Virus record (IMG/VR): IMGVR_UViG_3300042451_000020
Location: 1 to 23,794 of that record
Direction: 5' to 3' (one strand)
From: a virus
DNA: 23,794 bases
Shown here: piece after piece, positions 12,259 through 23,720 of the stretch
Layout of the letters: every line of letters starts with the position of its first letter
Position numbering within the stretch: the stretch's first letter is position 1
The notes under the pieces: model-generated
What the model was told of the DNA's origin: nothing
What the model saw: the letters and a program-made list of their open reading frames with translations, nothing else
Database searches by the model: none
Made by a program: the position numbers and the translations under genes

Positions 12259-13151
12259 ACCCACACGCACAATACAAGTTAGCCTACGATAACCTACACG
12301 CTGGCAGGTATGCTGCTGGCTTTAGGCTTTTTGAGTACCGCTGGCATAAAGACATATTAGCCAACCAAACCATTCCGTATGCAAGACTGCCTGTAGCCCC
12401 TAAAGCATGGCAGGGCGAATCCTTACTAGACAAGACCATTGTGGTTCAAATGGAACAAGGGTTTGGCGATATATTTCAATATGCACGGTTTTTGCCAGCC
12501 CTAAAAGTTCTAGGTGCTAAAAAGCTGGTTGTCTTGACCGTACCTAATTTATTTGGTGTTTTAGGGCAAATGGAGTGTATTGACCAGCTTACAAATCTGA
12601 CAGAGGAAGGCCCAGCACATGAATGTGACTACTGGATTGGCTCTATGTCATTGCCGTATTACATAGATTGTGCAATGCCATATGTAAAGGCATTATTTCC
12701 CGTAAATTCGCACAAAATTGTCGGATCAGAAGGTTATTTTGAAGCTGAACCCAGCAATATTCCTAAAAAGATAGGCGTTAATTGGTCTGCCAGCAAGGGT
12801 ACATTGCATTGGATCAAGTCTATATCCGCAGAACACATGGAAAAGCTAGTTGGAAGCGATGTTTACAGCTTAAACCCTGAAACTAATGGCAACTTTAGAC
12901 CGCTTCCTGACGATGGCTGGAAGAAAGACTGGTCAATTACCGCTAAACACATGAAAGCCATGCGTGGCGTAGTTACGGTAGACACAGGCACAGCACACTT
13001 GGCTGGTGCATTAGGCGTTAAATGCGTAGTTTTGCTGCCAAAAGAGGAATTTGTATGTTGGCGGTGGAAAAATGCCCGTTGGTATGACAGCGTTTGCCTA
13101 CTTAGACCCGAAGAATACGATAAATTACCTGAAATCATAAGGAGAATGTAA
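12240..13151 (+). CDS. Glycosyltransferase-like protein, apparent ATT start
   Basis: A roughly 303-residue protein of the TPR-linked glycosyltransferase group related to ADP-heptose transferases (GT9-like). From the proposed start it has one TPR-like unit (ALNPHAQYKLAYDNL, AGFRLFEYRW), then W.GESL and the family marker EQGFGDIFQYARFLP (72-86). The C-terminal half has IGVNWSASKG (about 178), VDTGTAHLAGALG (247-259) and CWRWKNARWYDS. The first ATG/GTG-type start (GTG 12441) would delete the conserved front part, yet an in-frame TGA at 12231 blocks any start further upstream. ATT at 12240 or 12243 is the only open option; an ATG at 12230 with GAGG upstream is in another frame. It may transfer a sugar to host surface glycan or a virion protein. 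Confidence 0.75.
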   Translation: MITTALNPHAQYKLAYDNLHAGRYAAGFRLFEYRWHKDILANQTIPYARLPVAPKAWQGESLLDKTIVVQMEQGFGDIFQYARFLPALKVLGAKKLVVLTVPNLFGVLGQMECIDQLTNLTEEGPAHECDYWIGSMSLPYYIDCAMPYVKALFPVNSHKIVGSEGYFEAEPSNIPKKIGVNWSASKGTLHWIKSISAEHMEKLVGSDVYSLNPETNGNFRPLPDDGWKKDWSITAKHMKAMRGVVTVDTGTAHLAGALGVKCVVLLPKEEFVCWRWKNARWYDSVCLLRPEEYDKLPEIIRRM

Positions 13152-14672: not shown

Positions 14673-15653
14673 ATGGCTTTTGCTAACTCAGCAATCACCG
14701 ATATTATCGCTACCACCATTCAAAGTCGTAGCGGAGTATTGGCAGATAACTTAACACAAAACAATGCAATTCTTCAGCGTTTGAACTCCAAAGGTAATGT
14801 TCGCCCATTCTCGGGTGGTAATGTGATCTTGGAAGAAATCATGTACAACGACCCAGCAACCAACAATGCTAATAGCTATAGCGGTTACGAAGTCTTGAAC
14901 ATCACTCCTGATAGCCCAATCTCGGCTGCTCAGTTCAGCATCACTCAGTATGCTGATTCTGTGACCATGAGTGGTCTTGAAATGTTGCAAAACAGCAGCA
15001 AAGAAGCAATCATCGACCTTTTAGATGGTCGTATGCAAGTTTCTGAAGCCCGTTTGTTGAACCGCATTTCGGGTGACTTGTATGGTGACGGTACTGGTAA
15101 CGGTGGTAAGAACATCACAGGTCTAGCCGCTGCTGTTTCTACATCGCCTACAACTGGCACATACGGTGGTATTAACCGTGCAAACTGGGAATTTTGGCGT
15201 AACCAAGCAACAACTGGTGCTGATTCCGCTGCTTTGATCCAAGCTGCTATGACTACTGCTGCTATCAAATCTGTTCGTGGTAATGATAAGGTAGACCTTA
15301 TTATTGCTGGTAACACTTTGTATCAGCGTTATGTAGCTTCTTTGCAAGCGATTCAGCGTATTGCTGGTGTAGACGAAGGTGCAGCAGGTTTCGCATCCCT
15401 TAAGTTCTACGGTGGCGGTATGTCTGCTGATGTGGTATTAGGTGGTGGTATTGGCGCACAAGAGAACGCATTGTATATGTATCTCTTGAACACCGATTAC
15501 ATCTTCTTCCGCCCACACAAAGAGCGTAATTTCGTTCCTATCGGTGGCGAGCGTCAGTCGATTAACCAAGATGCAATCGTGAAGCTGTACGGTTGGGCAG
15601 GTAACTTAACTTGCTCTAACGCTTCATTGCAAGGTATCTTGACTGGTTCTTAA
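14673..15653 (+). CDS. Major capsid protein
   Basis: A 326-residue shell protein, identified by family pattern and place between scaffold and decoration genes. Typical segments are MAFANSAITDIIATTIQSRS, LADNLTQNNAILQRL (residues about 23-37), a G-rich loop FSGGNVILEEI, YSGYEVLNITPDSPISAAQF, and RISGDLYGDGTGNGG near 131-145 (an A-domain-like Gly loop). The C-terminal half has HKERNFVPIGGERQSINQDA. It should adopt the HK97 fold. AAAGGAAAT before the ATG is a strong ribosome site, as expected for the most abundant protein. No N-terminal delta domain or cleavage site is evident, in line with a separate scaffold. Confidence 0.9.
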   Translation: MAFANSAITDIIATTIQSRSGVLADNLTQNNAILQRLNSKGNVRPFSGGNVILEEIMYNDPATNNANSYSGYEVLNITPDSPISAAQFSITQYADSVTMSGLEMLQNSSKEAIIDLLDGRMQVSEARLLNRISGDLYGDGTGNGGKNITGLAAAVSTSPTTGTYGGINRANWEFWRNQATTGADSAALIQAAMTTAAIKSVRGNDKVDLIIAGNTLYQRYVASLQAIQRIAGVDEGAAGFASLKFYGGGMSADVVLGGGIGAQENALYMYLLNTDYIFFRPHKERNFVPIGGERQSINQDAIVKLYGWAGNLTCSNASLQGILTGS

Positions 15654-15680
15654 TCAACTGACTAATTAAAGGAAATTATC

Positions 15681-15977
15681 ATGTCATATAACATTACCCC
15701 TACCTCGGGCATTAACTTGGATGCGGTTGTAGAAACCAATCCAAACTCTGCTGGTACTGGCGTTCCTGTCAATGGCCCACTTGGTTCACAAGTGTTTGGC
15801 TCTGACGGTAAGCGTTATGTACTAGGTGTTGCTGGTGCAGCTATTGCGGCTTCTACAGCAACTTGCTCGATCAATGCTTCTACATTCGTTGTTACAGCTT
15901 CAGGTGGCTCATATGCAGCCCCAGCCGTTGCCGTAGCTTCAGGTGATTATGCTTGGTTCGCAGCTACTAGTGTTTAA
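15681..15977 (+). CDS. Putative capsid decoration (cement) protein
   Basis: A 98-residue, Ala/Gly/Ser/Val-rich beta protein immediately after the capsid gene. It has VNGPLGSQVFGSDGKRYVLG, then AGAAIAASTATCSINASTF and SYAAPAVAVASGDYAWFAAT. This small beta-barrel-like pattern is frequent in genes that follow major capsid genes and fits a head decoration protein that binds the shell surface. It shares the capsid gene's type of strong upstream site (AAAGGAAAT). The terminator that follows it ends the head block. Confidence 0.7.
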   Translation: MSYNITPTSGINLDAVVETNPNSAGTGVPVNGPLGSQVFGSDGKRYVLGVAGAAIAASTATCSINASTFVVTASGGSYAAPAVAVASGDYAWFAATSV

Positions 15978-15999
15978 TAGCATTTTGTAGTAAAAACAG

Positions 16000-16027
16000 G
16001 GGGTTACCTTAATCGGTAGCCCCTTTT
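16000..16027 (+). terminator. Rho-independent terminator after the head genes
   Basis: GGGGTTACC (16000-16008) pairs with GGTAGCCCC (16015-16023) with one G-T wobble, around the six-base loop ttaatc, followed by TTTT (16024-16027). It has A-rich sequence on its left side. It sits in the 87-base gap between the decoration gene and the next gene, the largest gap of the window. It would limit readthrough so that scaffold, capsid and decoration transcripts outnumber the tail transcripts. Confidence 0.85.
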
Positions 16028-16064
16028 ACCTTTAACTTTACCTAACTACTTAGGAGATTTAAAA

Positions 16065-16715
16065 ATGGCTTTACCTAGTGATACACAAGGAGCAGATTCA
16101 CGCTTACAAGTACGCTTCTACAAGAAATCCGTACAACAAGAGCAGGAATCCATAGACGCTGGCAGACCAATCTACAAAGACTTTGATTTTGTACATATCT
16201 GCGTTGCTGGCGATACCCTTACCGAAATCGACACTTATGCGCTACAAAACCATAAGCAGCGTTTCCCTATTCAATGGGCTAATTATATGAATAGACAAGG
16301 GGCGCATGACGAAGAAGTGGTTGGAACGCCTGTTTCAGAATGGCCTTTAGTATCAAAAAGCCAAGCTGAAGAATTAAGAGCAATTAAGTTCCAAACCGTA
16401 GAATCTATTGCACACGCTTCAGATCAACAGTTACAGCGTATGGGAATGATTGCAGGAATGTCACCCTATGCGTTCCGTGACAAGGCAAAGGCATTTTTAA
16501 ATCTAGCAACTACGGCAGCAGAAACCGATAAGCGTGAACATGAGATTAACGCTTTGAAAGAAGAACTTGCCAAAAAGGAACTAGAAACTGCTAAAATGAA
16601 GGCAGAAACAGATGCAAAGCTGGCACAAATGCAAGAGCAAATGGCCACTATACTTGCTGCTGTTGGTGAAAAGAAACCCCGTAAACAGAAAACGGTAGCC
16701 ACAGAGGAAGCCTAA
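16065..16715 (+). CDS. Conserved head-associated phage protein, unknown
   Basis: A 216-residue protein of a widely distributed family that follows capsid genes. Conserved parts include LQVRFYKKSVQQEQESIDAG, then RPIYKDFDFVHICVAGDTL, a GTPVSEWPLV core (about residue 87), and LRAIKFQTVESIAHASDQQL. The C-terminal third (150-200) is a Lys/Glu/Met-rich coiled coil with a basic tail EKKPRKQKT. The central part resembles a helix-hairpin segment often associated with nucleic-acid contact. It starts after the terminator with AGGAG upstream and its stop directly abuts the next gene in the same frame. No established role. Confidence 0.75.
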   Translation: MALPSDTQGADSRLQVRFYKKSVQQEQESIDAGRPIYKDFDFVHICVAGDTLTEIDTYALQNHKQRFPIQWANYMNRQGAHDEEVVGTPVSEWPLVSKSQAEELRAIKFQTVESIAHASDQQLQRMGMIAGMSPYAFRDKAKAFLNLATTAAETDKREHEINALKEELAKKELETAKMKAETDAKLAQMQEQMATILAAVGEKKPRKQKTVATEEA

Positions 16716-17618
16716 ATGTCATCCAACCTACTCCAATTGGTTCAGCAAGTAACTTCTGAACTTAACCTTGCCGTACCGACCTATGTAGTTGGTAACCCTA
16801 GCCAAGATGTGCAGCAAATTCTTGCGCTAATGAATCGTGCTGGATATGACCTCATTAAAGAGCATGATTGGCAAGCATTGGAGTTGGAATACCGTTTCTA
16901 CACCACAGCAATAACCACAACCTGCGACACCATTAACAACACTTATGATCTGTTAAATGTTGCCGATACCACAGGTTTGGACAATACCTATTCCATCGTA
17001 GGTACAGCTATTCCGCAAGATACTTATGTGCAATCTGTGACAGGATCAACCGTAACGACTACTCAGTTAGCTTCTGCTACAAGCGTTGGCGGTACTGTGA
17101 CCTTCAGTAAAACGAAGTATCCCTTACCGCCTGATTATGAAACAGTTACAGATAATACCCATTGGGACAAGACAAAACATTGGCAAATGCTTGGCCCAGT
17201 TGATGCACAGCAATGGCAATGGTTAAAATCAGGCTATATTTCAACAGGCCCTAGGGTTCGCTGGCGTATTCTTGGCAATGAGTTTCAGATTTGGCCGCCT
17301 TACAATACCCTTGAATATTTAGGATTTGAGTACCGTTCTAAAGGATTTGTACGCAGTTTAACTGGCGAAGTAAAAAATAGCTTTACAGCAGACACAGACA
17401 CAACCGTTTTAGACGATTCTGTAATTGCTATATTGACCAAACTTAAATATTTCCAAATTAAATCTTTTGACACAACCGCATTGCAACAAGACTACAACCG
17501 TTATTTAAGCGTTGCCAAAGCAAACGACAAAGGATCAGCTACATTGTCATTTGCACCACAACCAAGTGCCGTTTTGATTGGTTGGGCAAACATTCCTGAT
17601 ACTGGTTACGGAAGCTAA
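16716..17618 (+). CDS. P22 gp4-like head-to-tail adaptor (tail accessory factor)
   Basis: A 300-residue protein with the helical N-terminus of the gp4/head-completion group (LLQLVQQVTSELNLAVPTYV, QILALMNRAGYDLIKEHDWQ) and a C-terminal half with YPLPPDYE, WQMLGPVDAQQWQWLKSGYI, RVRWRILGNEFQIWPPY and FEYRSKGF, found in podovirus adaptor proteins. It should form a ring below the portal and close the head after packaging. P22 gp4 is 166 residues; this is larger, partly because of an inserted beta-rich segment around residues 70-132 that includes VGTAIPQDTYVQSVTGSTVT. The stop of the previous gene touches its ATG in the same frame. Confidence 0.8.
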   Translation: MSSNLLQLVQQVTSELNLAVPTYVVGNPSQDVQQILALMNRAGYDLIKEHDWQALELEYRFYTTAITTTCDTINNTYDLLNVADTTGLDNTYSIVGTAIPQDTYVQSVTGSTVTTTQLASATSVGGTVTFSKTKYPLPPDYETVTDNTHWDKTKHWQMLGPVDAQQWQWLKSGYISTGPRVRWRILGNEFQIWPPYNTLEYLGFEYRSKGFVRSLTGEVKNSFTADTDTTVLDDSVIAILTKLKYFQIKSFDTTALQQDYNRYLSVAKANDKGSATLSFAPQPSAVLIGWANIPDTGYGS

Positions 17619-17620
17619 CT

Positions 17621-19621
17621 ATGGCAGTTGCACAACAACGCAAGGCTAATACTGCTAGTTTGGCTTCACCTATTGGCGGTTGGAACGCACGGGATTCACT
17701 AGCGGAAATGAATCCGCTTGATGCCGTACAGATGGTCAACTTTTTCCCCACGCCTACGGATGTGACTTTAAGGCAGGGATATACTCGCTATTCTCAGCTT
17801 ACAACTAGCACGGGCGTAGTTAGTATTAGCACCATAACATTTAATGACACCCTTGTAACTCTGACAACATCGACAGCGCATGGACTGTCAACAGATACTT
17901 TTATCTCTATTACAGGCGCAACACCATCAATTTACAACGGTATTCACCAAATTACCGTAATAGATAGCACAAGTTTTACTTACCGAGTTGCTTCTGTGCC
18001 TTCAGGAAATGCTACTGTTGTTGGAGCGTACACCATAGGGATAACAAACAATGTAGAAACGCTGATGAATTACAGCAGCCCTACAGTTCAAAAGCTATTT
18101 GCTGTTGCTGATGGCAAGATATACGACACATCGACCAATCCAGCTACCGTAGTATTTAGCGGTTTAGACAATAGCCGTTTTCAGCATATTAACTTTTCGA
18201 CTGCTGGCGGCAACTTTTTAGTTGCTGTTAACGGTCAAGACGCTGCTATGATTTATGACGGAGTGCGCTGGTTTAAGTTGGCGACCGTTACCGCAGCGCA
18301 GACAATTAGCACACTTACCAGTTCAGGAACAACGGCTACCGTAGTTACATCGTCAGCACATGGTCTTGTAACTGGCAATCGTATTCAAATGACAGGCGCA
18401 ACAGAAGCACCTTATAACGGTACTTTTGTTATTACTGTTACAAACACTACAACCTTTACTTACACGCTTGCTACGACCACTACAAGCCCCGCAACAGGAA
18501 CGCCTGTTTATAGCACTTTGGGCATTACTGGTATCAATAACAATCGTTTTGTGAATGTCAATTCTTTGCAAGAACGCATTTATTTTGTAGAAAAAGACAG
18601 TCTTAGCTTTTGGTACTTGCCTGTTGAATCGTTAGGTGGCGCAGCAACAGAATTTCCGCTTGGATCAATAGCTCGTAATGGTGGTTTTTTGCAAGCAATG
18701 GGTACTTGGACTATTGACGCTGGTTATGGCGTTGATGACTTTGGCGCATTCATTACTTCTATGGGTGAAGTTATTGTTTATAAAGGAACAGACCCTTCAG
18801 ACGCTAATGCTTGGTCTATGGTTGGCGTTTGGCAGATTGGGCAATCGTTTAACCGCAGGTGTTTCTTTAAATTTGGCGGTGATTTGCTGTTGATTACGCA
18901 AGGCGGCTTAGTGCCATTGGCGGCTGGCATTCAATCTAGCCGTTTAGACCCTCGAATTAACCTGACTGACAAGATTTTTTATGCAATGAGCCAAGCTGCA
19001 ACGCTTTATGCAGGTAATTTTGGTTGGCAAATTAACTATTTTGCTTCCGCTAATATGCTGATTCTTAATGTGCCTATTGAAAGTGGCTACGAACAATATG
19101 TAATGCACAACATTACTAAATCTTGGGCTAGATTTACCAATATTCCTGCTGTTTGCTGGGAAATGTCGGGTGGCGAAGGTATGTTCTTTGGTGCTAATGG
19201 CTTTATTGGTAAGTTTTACGATGGATTTAGCGACCAAGGCAATAACATTGTAGGTAATGTGCAGCAAGCGTACAGCTATTTTGACAGTCGTGGGCAATTA
19301 AAACGGTTTACTTTAGTTCGCCCTATTTTGCAAACAAATAGCCAAGTTCCTACTGTTTTATGCGGCATTAGTACCGACTTTGACACCGTAAACCTATCAA
19401 ACGAAATTACATTTAACCCTAGTCTGTCAACCGCAAGTACATGGGACACGGCTAAATGGGATCAAAATAATTGGGGTTCGGGACTTACCGTAACTAAAGT
19501 TTGGCAAGGCGTAAATGGAATAGGTTACTCAGGTTCAGTTAATTTAAGTGTTGCATCGCAAGGTGTAGATTTTAGATGGGCAAGCACGGATTATGTGATG
19601 GAGCGTGGGGGTGTTTTGTAA
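17621..19621 (+). CDS. P22 gp10-like packaged-DNA stabilisation/tail hub protein
   Basis: A 666-residue, strand-rich protein of the P22 gp10 type that forms the hub below the gp4-like ring. Recognisable are SPIGGWNARDSLAEMNPLDA near the start, VKLFAVADGKIYD-like blade repeats (about 157-170), ERIYFVEKDSLSFWYLP, LLLITQGGLVPLAAG and NITKSWARFTNIPAVCWEM, indicating a beta-propeller-like body. P22 gp10 is 472 residues; the extra length comes largely from two inserted Ig-like copies (about 66-138 and 228-298). The protein would plug or stabilise packaged DNA and connect fibres or spikes to the tail. It lies two bases after the gp4-like gene. Confidence 0.82.
   Translation: MAVAQQRKANTASLASPIGGWNARDSLAEMNPLDAVQMVNFFPTPTDVTLRQGYTRYSQLTTSTGVVSISTITFNDTLVTLTTSTAHGLSTDTFISITGATPSIYNGIHQITVIDSTSFTYRVASVPSGNATVVGAYTIGITNNVETLMNYSSPTVQKLFAVADGKIYDTSTNPATVVFSGLDNSRFQHINFSTAGGNFLVAVNGQDAAMIYDGVRWFKLATVTAAQTISTLTSSGTTATVVTSSAHGLVTGNRIQMTGATEAPYNGTFVITVTNTTTFTYTLATTTTSPATGTPVYSTLGITGINNNRFVNVNSLQERIYFVEKDSLSFWYLPVESLGGAATEFPLGSIARNGGFLQAMGTWTIDAGYGVDDFGAFITSMGEVIVYKGTDPSDANAWSMVGVWQIGQSFNRRCFFKFGGDLLLITQGGLVPLAAGIQSSRLDPRINLTDKIFYAMSQAATLYAGNFGWQINYFASANMLILNVPIESGYEQYVMHNITKSWARFTNIPAVCWEMSGGEGMFFGANGFIGKFYDGFSDQGNNIVGNVQQAYSYFDSRGQLKRFTLVRPILQTNSQVPTVLCGISTDFDTVNLSNEITFNPSLSTASTWDTAKWDQNNWGSGLTVTKVWQGVNGIGYSGSVNLSVASQGVDFRWASTDYVMERGGVL
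17816..18034 (+). repeat. Ig-like insert, copy 1
   Basis: This segment encodes VVSISTITFNDTLVTLTTST, AHGLSTDTFISITGATPSIY, NGIHQITVIDSTSFTYRVAS. The same layout (threonine strand, AHGL, ITGAT..YNG, ITV..S..FTY) recurs 480 bases later. Such modules occur inserted in many phage structural proteins. Confidence 0.75.
18302..18514 (+). repeat. Ig-like insert, copy 2
   Basis: Encodes ISTLTSSGTTATVVTSSAHG, LVTGNRIQMTGATEAPYNGT, FVITVTNTTTFTYTLAT, the second copy of the AHGL/TGAT/YNG/FTY module in the same gene. The protein copies are clearly related but differ in sequence, so the duplication is not recent. Confidence 0.75.
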
Positions 19622-20041
19622 ATGCTTTGTTTGGACAAGGATTTAGTTGGCCCTTGGATAGCTAGGCATTGCAATATGACTTGGACACCTGATAATTCAA
19701 CTGCAATTGGGTTATTAAAAGACAATGATTTAGTAGCTGGTGTTTGGTATGAGGATTACAACAAAGTTTCAATAATGTGCCATATAGCCATAACTGGCAA
19801 AATGACACCTAAATATTTAAATGTTATTTTTGACTATCCTTTTGTACAATTAGGGGTAGAAAAGATAGTTGTACCCGTACTTAGTGACAATAAAGTATCA
19901 ACCAAATTTGTAAAAAATTTGGGATTTGAAGAAAAAGCTCGATTATCTGAAGTTTCGCCTGATGGTGATATGGTATTTTTTGTAATGTCTAAGGACAAAT
20001 GTAAATTTATAGGAGAACGATATGGGAAAAGGCGGAGGTAG
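19622..20041 (+). CDS. GNAT-family acetyltransferase
   Basis: A 139-residue GNAT-type protein matching a small group often found next to gp10-like tail genes. It has LVAGVWYEDYNKVSIMCHIA (strands 2-4), YLNVIFDYPFVQLGVEKIVV and LSDNKVSTKFVKNLGFEEKA, the usual last GNAT part with N..S..F...LGF. The classical acetyl-CoA loop (QxxGxG/A) is replaced by a helix beginning with MTPKYLNVIF, as in other phage members, so activity is likely but not assured. Such enzymes acetylate amines on proteins or small molecules; the target is unknown. Its stop overlaps the next gene by 20 bases and its start touches the gp10-like stop in the same frame. Confidence 0.8.
   Translation: MLCLDKDLVGPWIARHCNMTWTPDNSTAIGLLKDNDLVAGVWYEDYNKVSIMCHIAITGKMTPKYLNVIFDYPFVQLGVEKIVVPVLSDNKVSTKFVKNLGFEEKARLSEVSPDGDMVFFVMSKDKCKFIGERYGKRRR
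20011..20015 (+). promoter_or_regulatory. Ribosome binding site inside the acetyltransferase gene
   Basis: AGGAG six bases before ATG 20022, within the last codons of the preceding gene. It is a near-ideal site and fixes the overlapping start of the ejection protein. Confidence 0.7.
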
Positions 20042-21371
20042 TGCCCCACCACCACCTGATTATGCTGGTGCTGCTCAACAAACAGCGGCAGGTAACTTAG
20101 AAGCCGCCCGTGTTGCTACTAAAGCAAACAGGGTAAACCAAGTTACACCTTATGGCTCTTTGACTTACACGCAAAATCAATCGCCTACATTTAATGCTGA
20201 AGGATATAGAACAGCTTTAGATGCATACAATCAGGCAAGGCAGTCATATCAGCCACAAACTGATGAATACGGCAATGTGTACAACCCAATGCCTACTGCG
20301 CCAAATTACAATGATTTTATGATGGCTGCCGATCCTGATTCGGGATGGACAGCAACACAATCTTTAAGCCCTGAACAACAAGAAATTCTTAACTATCAAA
20401 ATCAAACCAGTATTGGACTTGGTAAGTTGGCAGGTCAAGGTCTTGGTTATGTTGAAGATATGCTTAATACGCCTTTTGACACTAGCCGATTGGCAGAATT
20501 GCAGTCACGGGTTAGCCCTGCGGATATGCAACGCCTTACTGGTCAAGCTAACCTTGGTCAAATGGGTGAAGCTGAAAGACAATTACGGGCAGGTCAAGCA
20601 CCAAATTTACAAACATCTATCGGTCAAAACGCAGGTATGGAAGGTTGGGATCGTGCAAGCAATCTGTTAATGCAACGCCTTGACCCGCAATTAGAACGCC
20701 AATCAGAGCGTTTAGATGCTCAATTGGCAGCACAAGGCATTCCTATGGGTTCAGAAGCATATACCCGTGCCAAGCAAGACCTTGCAATGCAACAAAACGA
20801 TGCTAGAACGCAAGCCCAGCTACAGGCACAAGGCATTCAACAAAATCTGTTTGGTCAAGAATTGCAAGCTGGTCAGTTTGGTAATCAAGCTATGCTTGGT
20901 CAGAATCAAGCGCAATTGGCTAATCTTGGCTTTACCAATCAAGCAACGCAACAAGACTTTGCTAATCAATTGGCTGGAATGGGCTTTAATAACCAGCAAA
21001 TTCAGCAAATGTACCAAAACCAACAAGCACAGCAACAAGCTAATAACGCTATTGCACAGCAAGAATATGCTAACCGAATGGGTGGCGCAAACTTGTCTAA
21101 CCAAGCCCGTCAGCAAGGTTTACAAGAACAAGCCTACCTGCGTAATGAACCACTAAATACCCTTTCTGCGGTGCGTACTGGTTCACAGGTGACTGGCCCA
21201 CAATTTGTAAATTCATTTAACCAAGCTACAACGCAAGGCCCTGATTTATTGGGCGCACAACAAATGAATTACAACGCTCAAATGGGTGCTTATAACGCCC
21301 AGCAAGCAGGTCAAAACAGCATGACTAGCGGATTAATGGGATTGGCTGGTGCAGGAGTAATGGCGTTCTAA
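20022..21371 (+). CDS. Putative internal/ejection protein (GGGSAPPPPDY type)
   Basis: A 449-residue Gln/Asn/Ala-rich helical protein. The first residues MGKGGGSAPPPPDYAGAAQQ, then ANRVNQVTPYGSLTYTQ and LSPEQQEILNYQNQTSIGLG, define a common family in podovirus genomes downstream of the tail hub, where DNA-ejection (pilot) proteins are encoded. Residues about 240-360 are repeated Gln-rich helices, and the C-terminus is a short hydrophobic Gly/Ala/Met segment (GLMGLAGAGVMAF) that could insert in a membrane. The role in ejection follows from position and composition, not from a catalytic motif. Confidence 0.72.
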   Translation: MGKGGGSAPPPPDYAGAAQQTAAGNLEAARVATKANRVNQVTPYGSLTYTQNQSPTFNAEGYRTALDAYNQARQSYQPQTDEYGNVYNPMPTAPNYNDFMMAADPDSGWTATQSLSPEQQEILNYQNQTSIGLGKLAGQGLGYVEDMLNTPFDTSRLAELQSRVSPADMQRLTGQANLGQMGEAERQLRAGQAPNLQTSIGQNAGMEGWDRASNLLMQRLDPQLERQSERLDAQLAAQGIPMGSEAYTRAKQDLAMQQNDARTQAQLQAQGIQQNLFGQELQAGQFGNQAMLGQNQAQLANLGFTNQATQQDFANQLAGMGFNNQQIQQMYQNQQAQQQANNAIAQQEYANRMGGANLSNQARQQGLQEQAYLRNEPLNTLSAVRTGSQVTGPQFVNSFNQATTQGPDLLGAQQMNYNAQMGAYNAQQAGQNSMTSGLMGLAGAGVMAF

Positions 21372-22102
21372 TGCAAGAGTTTTATAACCGCCACAGAAAA
21401 GTCGCTTTAATGTTTTCGGGCGGTAAAGATTCAATAGTTTGTTTAGATTTAATTAAAGATTATGTAGATAGGACTGTGGTAATTTGGAACAATACTGGGG
21501 CTAATTTTCCTGAGATTGTGGATTACATGGAAAAAGTAAAGGCAAAAGTGCCTTTTTTCTATGAAATTAAGACCAATCAACCAAAGTCTATTGCAGAAAA
21601 TGGCTACCCAGTAGATGTGTTGCCACTTAACTTTACTGAACTTGGTCAGGCAGTTACGACCAAAAAGACGATTAAGTTAAGAAGTTATTTTGATTGTTGT
21701 GCAGAAAACTTTTGGTTTCCGTGCAACGAGGTAGTAAAAAGTTTAGGAATTACGGGAATTATCAGAGGTCAAAGGCTTGCAGAATCCCACAAAGCACCTA
21801 TTAGGTCGGGGTATCAAGAAGATGGCATTGAATACTTTTTCCCAATAGAAAGCTGGTCAGACGCACAAGTAGTGGATTATTTAGAAAGCCATGACTTGTT
21901 AGACGATGAGCGATTAAAAATGGGGCATTCTTCACTAGATTGTTGGAACTGTACGGCTTATTTAGGGGACAGCGAAGATCGAATGAGGTATGTAAAAAGT
22001 AAGCATCCTGAGAAGTTTGAAGAATTAAAAATAATTCTCAAAGAAATCAACGATGCTATTAAAATAGAAACCAATGGCATTAGCAAAGTTTTGGAGATTT
22101 AA
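21371..22102 (+). CDS. PAPS/APS reductase-like PP-loop enzyme with Fe-S cysteine pattern
   Basis: A 243-residue adenine-nucleotide alpha-hydrolase of the PAPS reductase group. The PP-loop SGGKDS is at residues 16-21, NNTGANFPE at 40-48, GIIRGQRLAESHKAPIRSG at 129-147, and PIESWSDAQVVDYL at 158-171. Cys109-Cys110 and Cys191-x-x-Cys194 form the CC-X80-CXXC arrangement that holds a [4Fe-4S] cluster in APS reductases. The catalytic C-terminal cysteine motif (ECGLH in reductases) is absent, so ordinary sulfate reduction is doubtful; nucleotide or nucleic-acid thiolation, or a DndC-like role, are alternatives. It sits between two internal virion genes and abuts the next gene in frame. Confidence 0.8.
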   Translation: MQEFYNRHRKVALMFSGGKDSIVCLDLIKDYVDRTVVIWNNTGANFPEIVDYMEKVKAKVPFFYEIKTNQPKSIAENGYPVDVLPLNFTELGQAVTTKKTIKLRSYFDCCAENFWFPCNEVVKSLGITGIIRGQRLAESHKAPIRSGYQEDGIEYFFPIESWSDAQVVDYLESHDLLDDERLKMGHSSLDCWNCTAYLGDSEDRMRYVKSKHPEKFEELKIILKEINDAIKIETNGISKVLEI

Positions 22103-22474
22103 ATGAATATGAACCCATACGGACAAAATCCTTTCATCCAGCAGGGGCAAATGCAAGATTTAAGCGGTGTTGCCCCTATGTATCAAAACATTGGTGGACA
22201 GCAAGCCAACCAAAACGCTGCTCTTGGACAACAAAACCAACTAATGAACCAAGCCGCCCAATTAGGGCAACAAAGTAACAACATGAATCCTTTAGCTTTA
22301 GCTATTATGTTGCGTAAAGGTGAAAAGCCTACACAAGACCAAATGAACGCCAAAGATGCACAAATGGGTGGCTTAAGCACATACAACCCAATGACCCAAT
22401 ATGACATTTCACAGCAATACGGTACTGATATGTATTCGCCACAAAGCAGAATGTTAGCTGCACAGGAAAGATAA
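22103..22474 (+). CDS. Gln/Asn/Met-rich putative internal virion protein
   Basis: A 123-residue protein made largely of Gln, Asn, Met, Gly and Pro, beginning MNMNPYGQNPFIQQGQMQDL, with one short conventional helix (LALAIMLRKGEKPTQDQMN). Its composition resembles the flanking putative ejection proteins, and disorder is likely. I recognise no family. GGAG upstream and direct contact with the preceding stop place it firmly in the ejection operon. It may be a small internal or core protein; no motif establishes this. Confidence 0.6.
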   Translation: MNMNPYGQNPFIQQGQMQDLSGVAPMYQNIGGQQANQNAALGQQNQLMNQAAQLGQQSNNMNPLALAIMLRKGEKPTQDQMNAKDAQMGGLSTYNPMTQYDISQQYGTDMYSPQSRMLAAQER

Positions 22475-22475
22475 T

Positions 22476-23720
22476 ATGGCTAATGGAACTTTACCCCCCG
22501 AATTGTTTGCAGAGCAACAGCAATTAAACCGCCAGCAACAAATGGCGCAAATGCTGATGCAACAAGGTACACAACAACCGCAGGGCCAAATGGTCAGCGG
22601 TCAATATGTAAAACCTAGCATATTTGCTCAATTAGTCCCTTTAGCCCAAATGTACGCTGGTACACGCATGGCACAACAAGGCGATAAAAGAGCCTTAGAT
22701 ATGGCTGCTGCATTGCGTAAACGCCAAGGTGAGGATGTTCAGTCTTACATGACTGCAATGACCCCAACCACAACTACTACTGAAATGGCTGGGCCATACG
22801 GGGTTAGCGGTGCAGGTCAAAATATACCTATGCCAGTTGCTACGCAGACGCAAGGCCCTGATTACGCTAAAGCGTTCCAAGTTGCCTATAACTCATATGA
22901 TCCTGCACTAAGAGCGCAAGCCCTTGATATGCTGAAAACTCAGAAATTGGGCGAAGGTGAAAGCCTTAACCGCATGGACTTCACGACTGGAAGATTAACG
23001 CCAATTGGTCAGGGTGGCGAAAAGGTATCGCCTGATATTCGTACCGCTGCACAAATGTTAGGTATTACTGGCAACCCAAGCACATTTACACCGCAACAAA
23101 CAAAAGCGGTAGCAGACCAAGTTACAGCTAATAAGCGTTCAGCAGCAACAAATGTCAATGTAAACACAGCCAACAAGTTTGCTGGTGGGTTTGCTGATAA
23201 AGCTAGTGCTGGCGCATATGATATGTACACAGCAGCATTAAACGCTCCAAAAGCAATTGAAAACAGCAAGCGCACTATTGACTTAGTTAATTCAGGTGCA
23301 TTGACTGGTACTGGCGCAGATTTAGCTTTACAAGCTGCAAAAGTATTTAATGTGGCTGGTGCGGATAATAAAGAAACTATTAGAAATACTGAAATGCTTG
23401 TTGCTAATCGTGGTAAAGCATTGCTTGGCAGCATTAAAGCATCAGGTCTTGCTGGTAGCCAAGGTCTTACAGAAGGTGAGCGTAAGTTCTTGACGCAAGC
23501 TGAAGGTGGAACAATTACTCTTGATGGCGAAACATTAAAAGCAATGGCTGGTCTTGAAATTAAGATGGCAGTTGATAATCAGAAAAAATGGAACGCTCAA
23601 GCAGGTCGCATGGATCCCGAAATTTTAAAAGTTACTGGTGCTGGCCCTGTAGAAGTTTATACAGGCACAGGATCTATTGATTTAGGCAATCCATTGTTAG
23701 CACCAAAACCAAGGCGATAA
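22476..23720 (+). CDS. Putative internal virion/ejection protein
   Basis: A 414-residue protein with a Gln-rich helical N-terminus (PPELFAEQQQLNRQQQMAQM), a Thr-rich linker near residue 100, and a conserved-looking C-terminal half: NSGALTGTGADLALQAAKVF, NTEMLVANRGKALLGSIKAS and GLTEGERKFLTQAEGGTITL. Parts of the latter occur in large virion-associated proteins of many phages. The protein is helical and Ala-rich, as expected for material ejected with DNA. It lacks an obvious enzyme motif. It starts one base after the preceding gene, and the next gene follows after one base. Confidence 0.68.
   Translation: MANGTLPPELFAEQQQLNRQQQMAQMLMQQGTQQPQGQMVSGQYVKPSIFAQLVPLAQMYAGTRMAQQGDKRALDMAAALRKRQGEDVQSYMTAMTPTTTTTEMAGPYGVSGAGQNIPMPVATQTQGPDYAKAFQVAYNSYDPALRAQALDMLKTQKLGEGESLNRMDFTTGRLTPIGQGGEKVSPDIRTAAQMLGITGNPSTFTPQQTKAVADQVTANKRSAATNVNVNTANKFAGGFADKASAGAYDMYTAALNAPKAIENSKRTIDLVNSGALTGTGADLALQAAKVFNVAGADNKETIRNTEMLVANRGKALLGSIKASGLAGSQGLTEGERKFLTQAEGGTITLDGETLKAMAGLEIKMAVDNQKKWNAQAGRMDPEILKVTGAGPVEVYTGTGSIDLGNPLLAPKPRR

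Follow-up and report, generated by a model that had tools for sequence, protein, structure and literature searches.

A phage gene for a PAPS-reductase-like protein, optional at one site of a late virion-gene operon and without residues used by CysH

We characterized, in a viral DNA stretch of 23,794 nucleotides (IMG/VR record IMGVR_UViG_3300042451_000020; the whole stretch is hereafter the window), a real, conserved and optional phage gene at 21371-22102, which belongs to a phage family of PAPS-reductase-like proteins (PHROG 424) that is already described and named in databases. The gene is under purifying selection and occupies one fixed site within a late virion-gene operon in a minority of close relatives. 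Its product very probably does not function as a self-sufficient assimilatory APS/PAPS reductase (CysH). The relevant features of the window are:

19622..20041, + strand: GNAT acyltransferase gene (PHROG 4470)
20022..21371, + strand: upstream virion structural protein gene (PHROG 6121), whose stop overlaps the start of the PAPS-like gene
21371..22102, + strand: PAPS-reductase-like gene, 243 amino acids plus stop (PHROG 424 / PF01507)
21416..21433, + strand: PP-loop SGGKDS (residues 16-21), a motif of the ATP-pyrophosphatase type
21695..21700, + strand: Cys109-Cys110, first half of a predicted APR-type [4Fe-4S] site, without RK behind it
21941..21952, + strand: Cys191-Trp-Asn-Cys194 (DCWNCTAY), second half of the predicted cluster site
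22007..22096, + strand: C-terminal helix (residues 213-242, predicted structure), where CysH has its ECGLH tail
22103..22474, + strand: small late-block protein rich in Q/N, starting directly past the PAPS-like stop
22476..23720, + strand: next late-block gene, no family match

The open reading frame is not a chance one, since its product matches the PF01507 PAPS_reduct domain (E 3.8e-17; 63.3 bits against a cut-off of 22.5) and the PHROG 424 profile (E 1.5e-31) and has 57 relatives in IMG/VR at 95-32% identity; BrxP is a weak match. Among 50,697 phage records we recovered 10 matches, of which eight belong to Burkholderia phages (five phages) and the other two to an uncultured phage and an Aeromonas phage. 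An earlier note, made from the letters of the DNA, had read a SGGKDS PP-loop, Cys109/110 and Cys191/194 in this product: all are present, and the 80 residues separating C110 from C191 make its CC-X80-CXXC spacing exact. Across 26 non-redundant relatives G18, D20, S21, the CC and CXXC pairs and Y197 are invariant, SGG[KR]DS or a near variant occurs in every one, and an ECGLH tail in none (0/26). In the alignment of 32 relatives C109, C110, C191 and C194 are the sole invariant cysteines. C24, considered as a further catalytic cysteine, occurs commonly but is lacking from several relatives, BcepIL02 among them, and was rejected. Purifying selection is evident from dN/dS values of ~0.18 for the pair with the relative L004 and 0.09-0.14 for the majority of the remaining pairs; a single pair reaches 0.32.

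Structure prediction and comparison, as the note had proposed, gave an AlphaFold2 model (from a 32-member alignment; pLDDT 93.7, pTM 0.88) with a confident APS-reductase/PP-loop fold, whose best structural matches are APS/PAPS reductases (Z 13.5-14.9) and CysD (1zun, Z 16.0). Behind these, at Z 12-14, come PP-loop ATPases, among them GMP synthetase, TilS/MesJ and LarE. The APS reductase match spans residues 1-206, and of the viral models a phage protein bearing the label CysH lies closest (TM 0.87). All four cysteines find their counterparts in the CC and CXXC of the Mycobacterium tuberculosis APS reductase 7lhr, with DCWNCTAY set against its GCAPCTA; with both pairs in APR positions, this alignment suggests that they form one APR-type [4Fe-4S] site. 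At the level of motif and fold the protein likewise displays the SGGxDS signature of a PP-loop ATP pyrophosphatase. The chain ends in a helix, predicted at residues 213-242, in the place of an ECGLH-type motif, just as had been surmised.

The residues of the protein set it apart from CysH. CysH (TIGR02055; 2goy, 7lhr) shares with it the fold and the CC...CXXC cluster ligands. However, CysH controls drawn from whole genomes combine CCxxRK, CXXC and ECG[LI]H with a decayed PP-loop that no longer reads SGGKDS, whereas the phage family shows the reverse: SGG[KR]DS with a few variants, a CC without RK, CXXC and no ECGLH. With control reading frames in the wrong frame (e.g., L117, L137 and L138) left out of the motif comparisons, ECG[LI]H is present in the controls L118, L123 and L125 and absent from the window protein and its aligned relatives, and the window protein has CCAENF where 3/3 CysH controls have RK. 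It also falls short of the NCBIfam CysH cut-offs, scoring 39.5 against 165.1 for TIGR00434, 38.8 against 235.3 for TIGR02055 and 29.8 against 254.2 for TIGR02057. Hence, judged by its own residues against the CCxxRK, ECG[LI]H and decayed PP-loop of the controls, the window protein does not belong to the CysH reductases. When a genuine APS reductase served as query, just four phage records were hit, of which one carries the label Salmonella enterica, so that CysH proper is rare in that phage collection at that sensitivity. The earlier proposal that the nucleotide and Fe-S parts are kept while CysH-type sulfate reduction is unlikely is therefore borne out by the motifs of the controls, the 7lhr alignment and the APS-reductase-like model.

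A working CysH that boosts host sulfur assimilation, which here would need a catalytic thiol from elsewhere, has nonetheless been the published interpretation of such genes: JC1 gp65 has been so read in print, the Lessievirus annotation is sulfate reductase, phage cysH genes in lakes have been understood likewise (PMC10914622), and domain, fold and cluster cysteines are all common to CysH. We consider this improbable for the family at hand, as none of the aligned relatives has ECGLH, the CC lacks its RK, the PP-loop is intact unlike that of the CysH controls, the scores stay far under the CysH model cut-offs (39.5 vs 165, 38.8 vs 235), and no cysteine outside the cluster is invariant. An enzyme of DNA phosphorothioation akin to DndC or SspD, modifying the phage DNA, has in its favor a shared PP-loop and a CXXC, together with a weak SspD match (E 0.0068 for the window protein, 3.6e-9 for the best in the family). 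DndC, SspD and BrxP are indeed similar to the window protein in having a PP-loop domain with cysteines; BrxP is larger and carries additional domains (PMC12839542). However, the DndC controls L132, L133, L134 and L136 display a C-x10-C-x6-CxxC layout without the CC pair of the window protein, and the five SspD controls likewise lack CC and have an additional C-terminal CXXC; lacking this pair, neither group can accommodate the window protein. Moreover, in a 64-protein tree the phage family and a handful of copies from bacterial genomes together form a separate clade (support 100/98), apart from DndC and SspD; the row cysH_L126 was disregarded there on account of its very long branch and probably wrong frame. 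Cysteine layout and tree thus led us to reject membership in DndC/SspD, and with it the DndC-like identity raised earlier; we rate phosphorothioation of this kind as very improbable.

Nested inside the phage clade are the Roseateles genome copies L064 and L066, as well as L063; the latter probably represents a prophage or a phage contig, since a GNAT gene and a virion protein gene adjoin its PAPS-like gene. Archaeal PAPS-reductase-domain proteins of the PRK13795 type are like the window protein in combining SGGKDS, CC and CXXC without ECGLH, but they are large ferredoxin-domain fusions, have CWLCP where the window protein has CWNCTAY, and lie elsewhere in the tree. A literature search on MJ0066/MJ0973 yielded nothing useful.

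Most of the named relatives among phages are Lessieviruses of Burkholderia (Bcep22-like; ~39% identity), whose genomes measure 61-63 kb, have a DarB-like gene farther downstream and carry the homologue under the annotation sulfate reductase. BcepIL02 gp67 and JC1 gp65 have the cysteines and PP-loop of the window protein as well as its gene order, and gp67, too, is without an ECGLH tail. BcepIL02 encodes, in succession, an internal virion protein, a virion protein, GNAT, a virion protein, the PAPS-like gene, virion proteins and DarB; hence, the window's order of GNAT, virion protein, PAPS-like gene and next late genes is also that of BcepIL02. In the window the upstream gene's stop overlaps the start of the PAPS-like gene in a TAATG at 21369-21373, and the ATG of the downstream gene lies directly behind the PAPS-like stop. 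The idea that the gene sits between two putative internal virion genes holds on the upstream side, where PHROG 6121 identifies a virion structural protein; the gene downstream matches no family but sits where Lessieviruses have virion genes. Elsewhere in the late block, the gene at 12441-13151 has a weak match to glycosyltransferase family 9 that is under the cut-off (E 7e-4).

A place between virion genes, with its start overlapping the stop of the gene before it, would suit an enzyme that is carried in the virion and ejected with the DNA, as the note had also envisaged. However, virion mass spectrometry of JC1 detected gp64, gp67 and gp68 and did not find gp63 (GNAT) or the PAPS-like homologue gp65 (PMC9144972); this homologue is only ~39% identical, and failure to appear in a mass-spectrometry list carries little weight. 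Furthermore, the gene is missing from the majority of close relatives, whose late blocks match in other respects. Proteomics and distribution together led us to set virion carriage aside as having little probability, and the PAPS-like protein is probably not a virion protein.

This distribution was established with the window's major capsid protein as query, keeping the best 80 contigs, which are not independent samples. Of these relatives, 39 span the site (capsid protein 93-99% identical), with six filled, 32 empty and one rearranged. Where present (6/39), the PAPS-like gene always has the identical position, and in the 32 empty loci the next late gene stands close behind the upstream gene, and nothing separates the two. 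GNAT is found in 34/34 fully covered loci, and the more distant Lastavirus SopranoGao and phage MW202489 have the GNAT-virion protein block without the PAPS-like gene. Nearly all relatives, Klebsiella Lastavirus and Burkholderia Lessievirus among them, have a GNAT gene within the virion block, and this gene is much more constant than the PAPS-like one. Mosaicism runs through the late genes and is strong between the window (14673-23720) and the relative L160, in which the capsid protein is 99%, the PAPS-like protein 67%, GNAT 33% and the protein preceding GNAT 69% identical.

The upstream virion protein (window 20022-21371; L164:15141-16202; L161:15716-17089) itself differs with the state of the site. 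Its C-terminus is usually an S74 chaperone domain in relatives without the PAPS-like gene (PF13884, E 6.7e-11 in L164) and a short hydrophobic tail in those with it. The counts are 29 loci with S74 alone, six with the gene alone, four with neither and none with both, and no S74 signature was found upstream in 60 gene-bearing loci. Most simply, S74 and the PAPS-like gene would be two alternative modules that recombination exchanges at a single site. A bolder proposal, by which a phage-specific class with PP-loop and four-cysteine APR-type cluster performs a late sulfur or adenylate modification unlike known CysH, DndC and TtcA and functionally replaces the mutually exclusive S74 domain of the neighbouring virion protein, strikes us as highly improbable.

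As to function, there is about an even chance that the protein is an optional, accessory enzyme from a clade of PAPS-reductase-like proteins specific to phages. Such an enzyme would be made late, act in the infected cell and stay unpackaged; it would split ATP to AMP and PPi, thereby activating a substrate beside the [4Fe-4S] cluster, and might join in sulfur transfer or a related modification, without reducing APS or PAPS. ATP-pyrophosphatase chemistry, with ATP cleavage judged from the motif, has somewhat more for it than against it, and sulfur transfer is put forward tentatively. The thiolases TtuA, NcsA and TtcA have three-cysteine sites, unlike the four-cysteine clusters considered here, so that no transfer of the TtuA/NcsA/TtcA kind is implied here. 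We identified no partner, with ParB-type genes in only 2/16 gene-bearing records; an IbrB/ParB partner was rejected, as PF02195 is present in 4/29 records, two with and two without the gene, and hence not linked to it. A catalytically silent or regulatory nucleotide- and Fe-S-binding protein, as proposed for IbrA, would fit a single gene with no known partner and with no identified catalytic residue aside from the PP-loop; however, conservation is among the highest at the PP-loop and the cluster positions, which suits chemistry, and we regard a silent protein as unlikely.

The annotation of the PAPS-like gene as a sulfate reductase is doubtful. Phage cysH genes have been counted as virus-driven sulfate assimilation, for example 167 in freshwater phages (PMC10914622). 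Given a PAPS-like clade without the residues that CysH uses, part of the inference of sulfate assimilation by phages may rest on a misassigned function.
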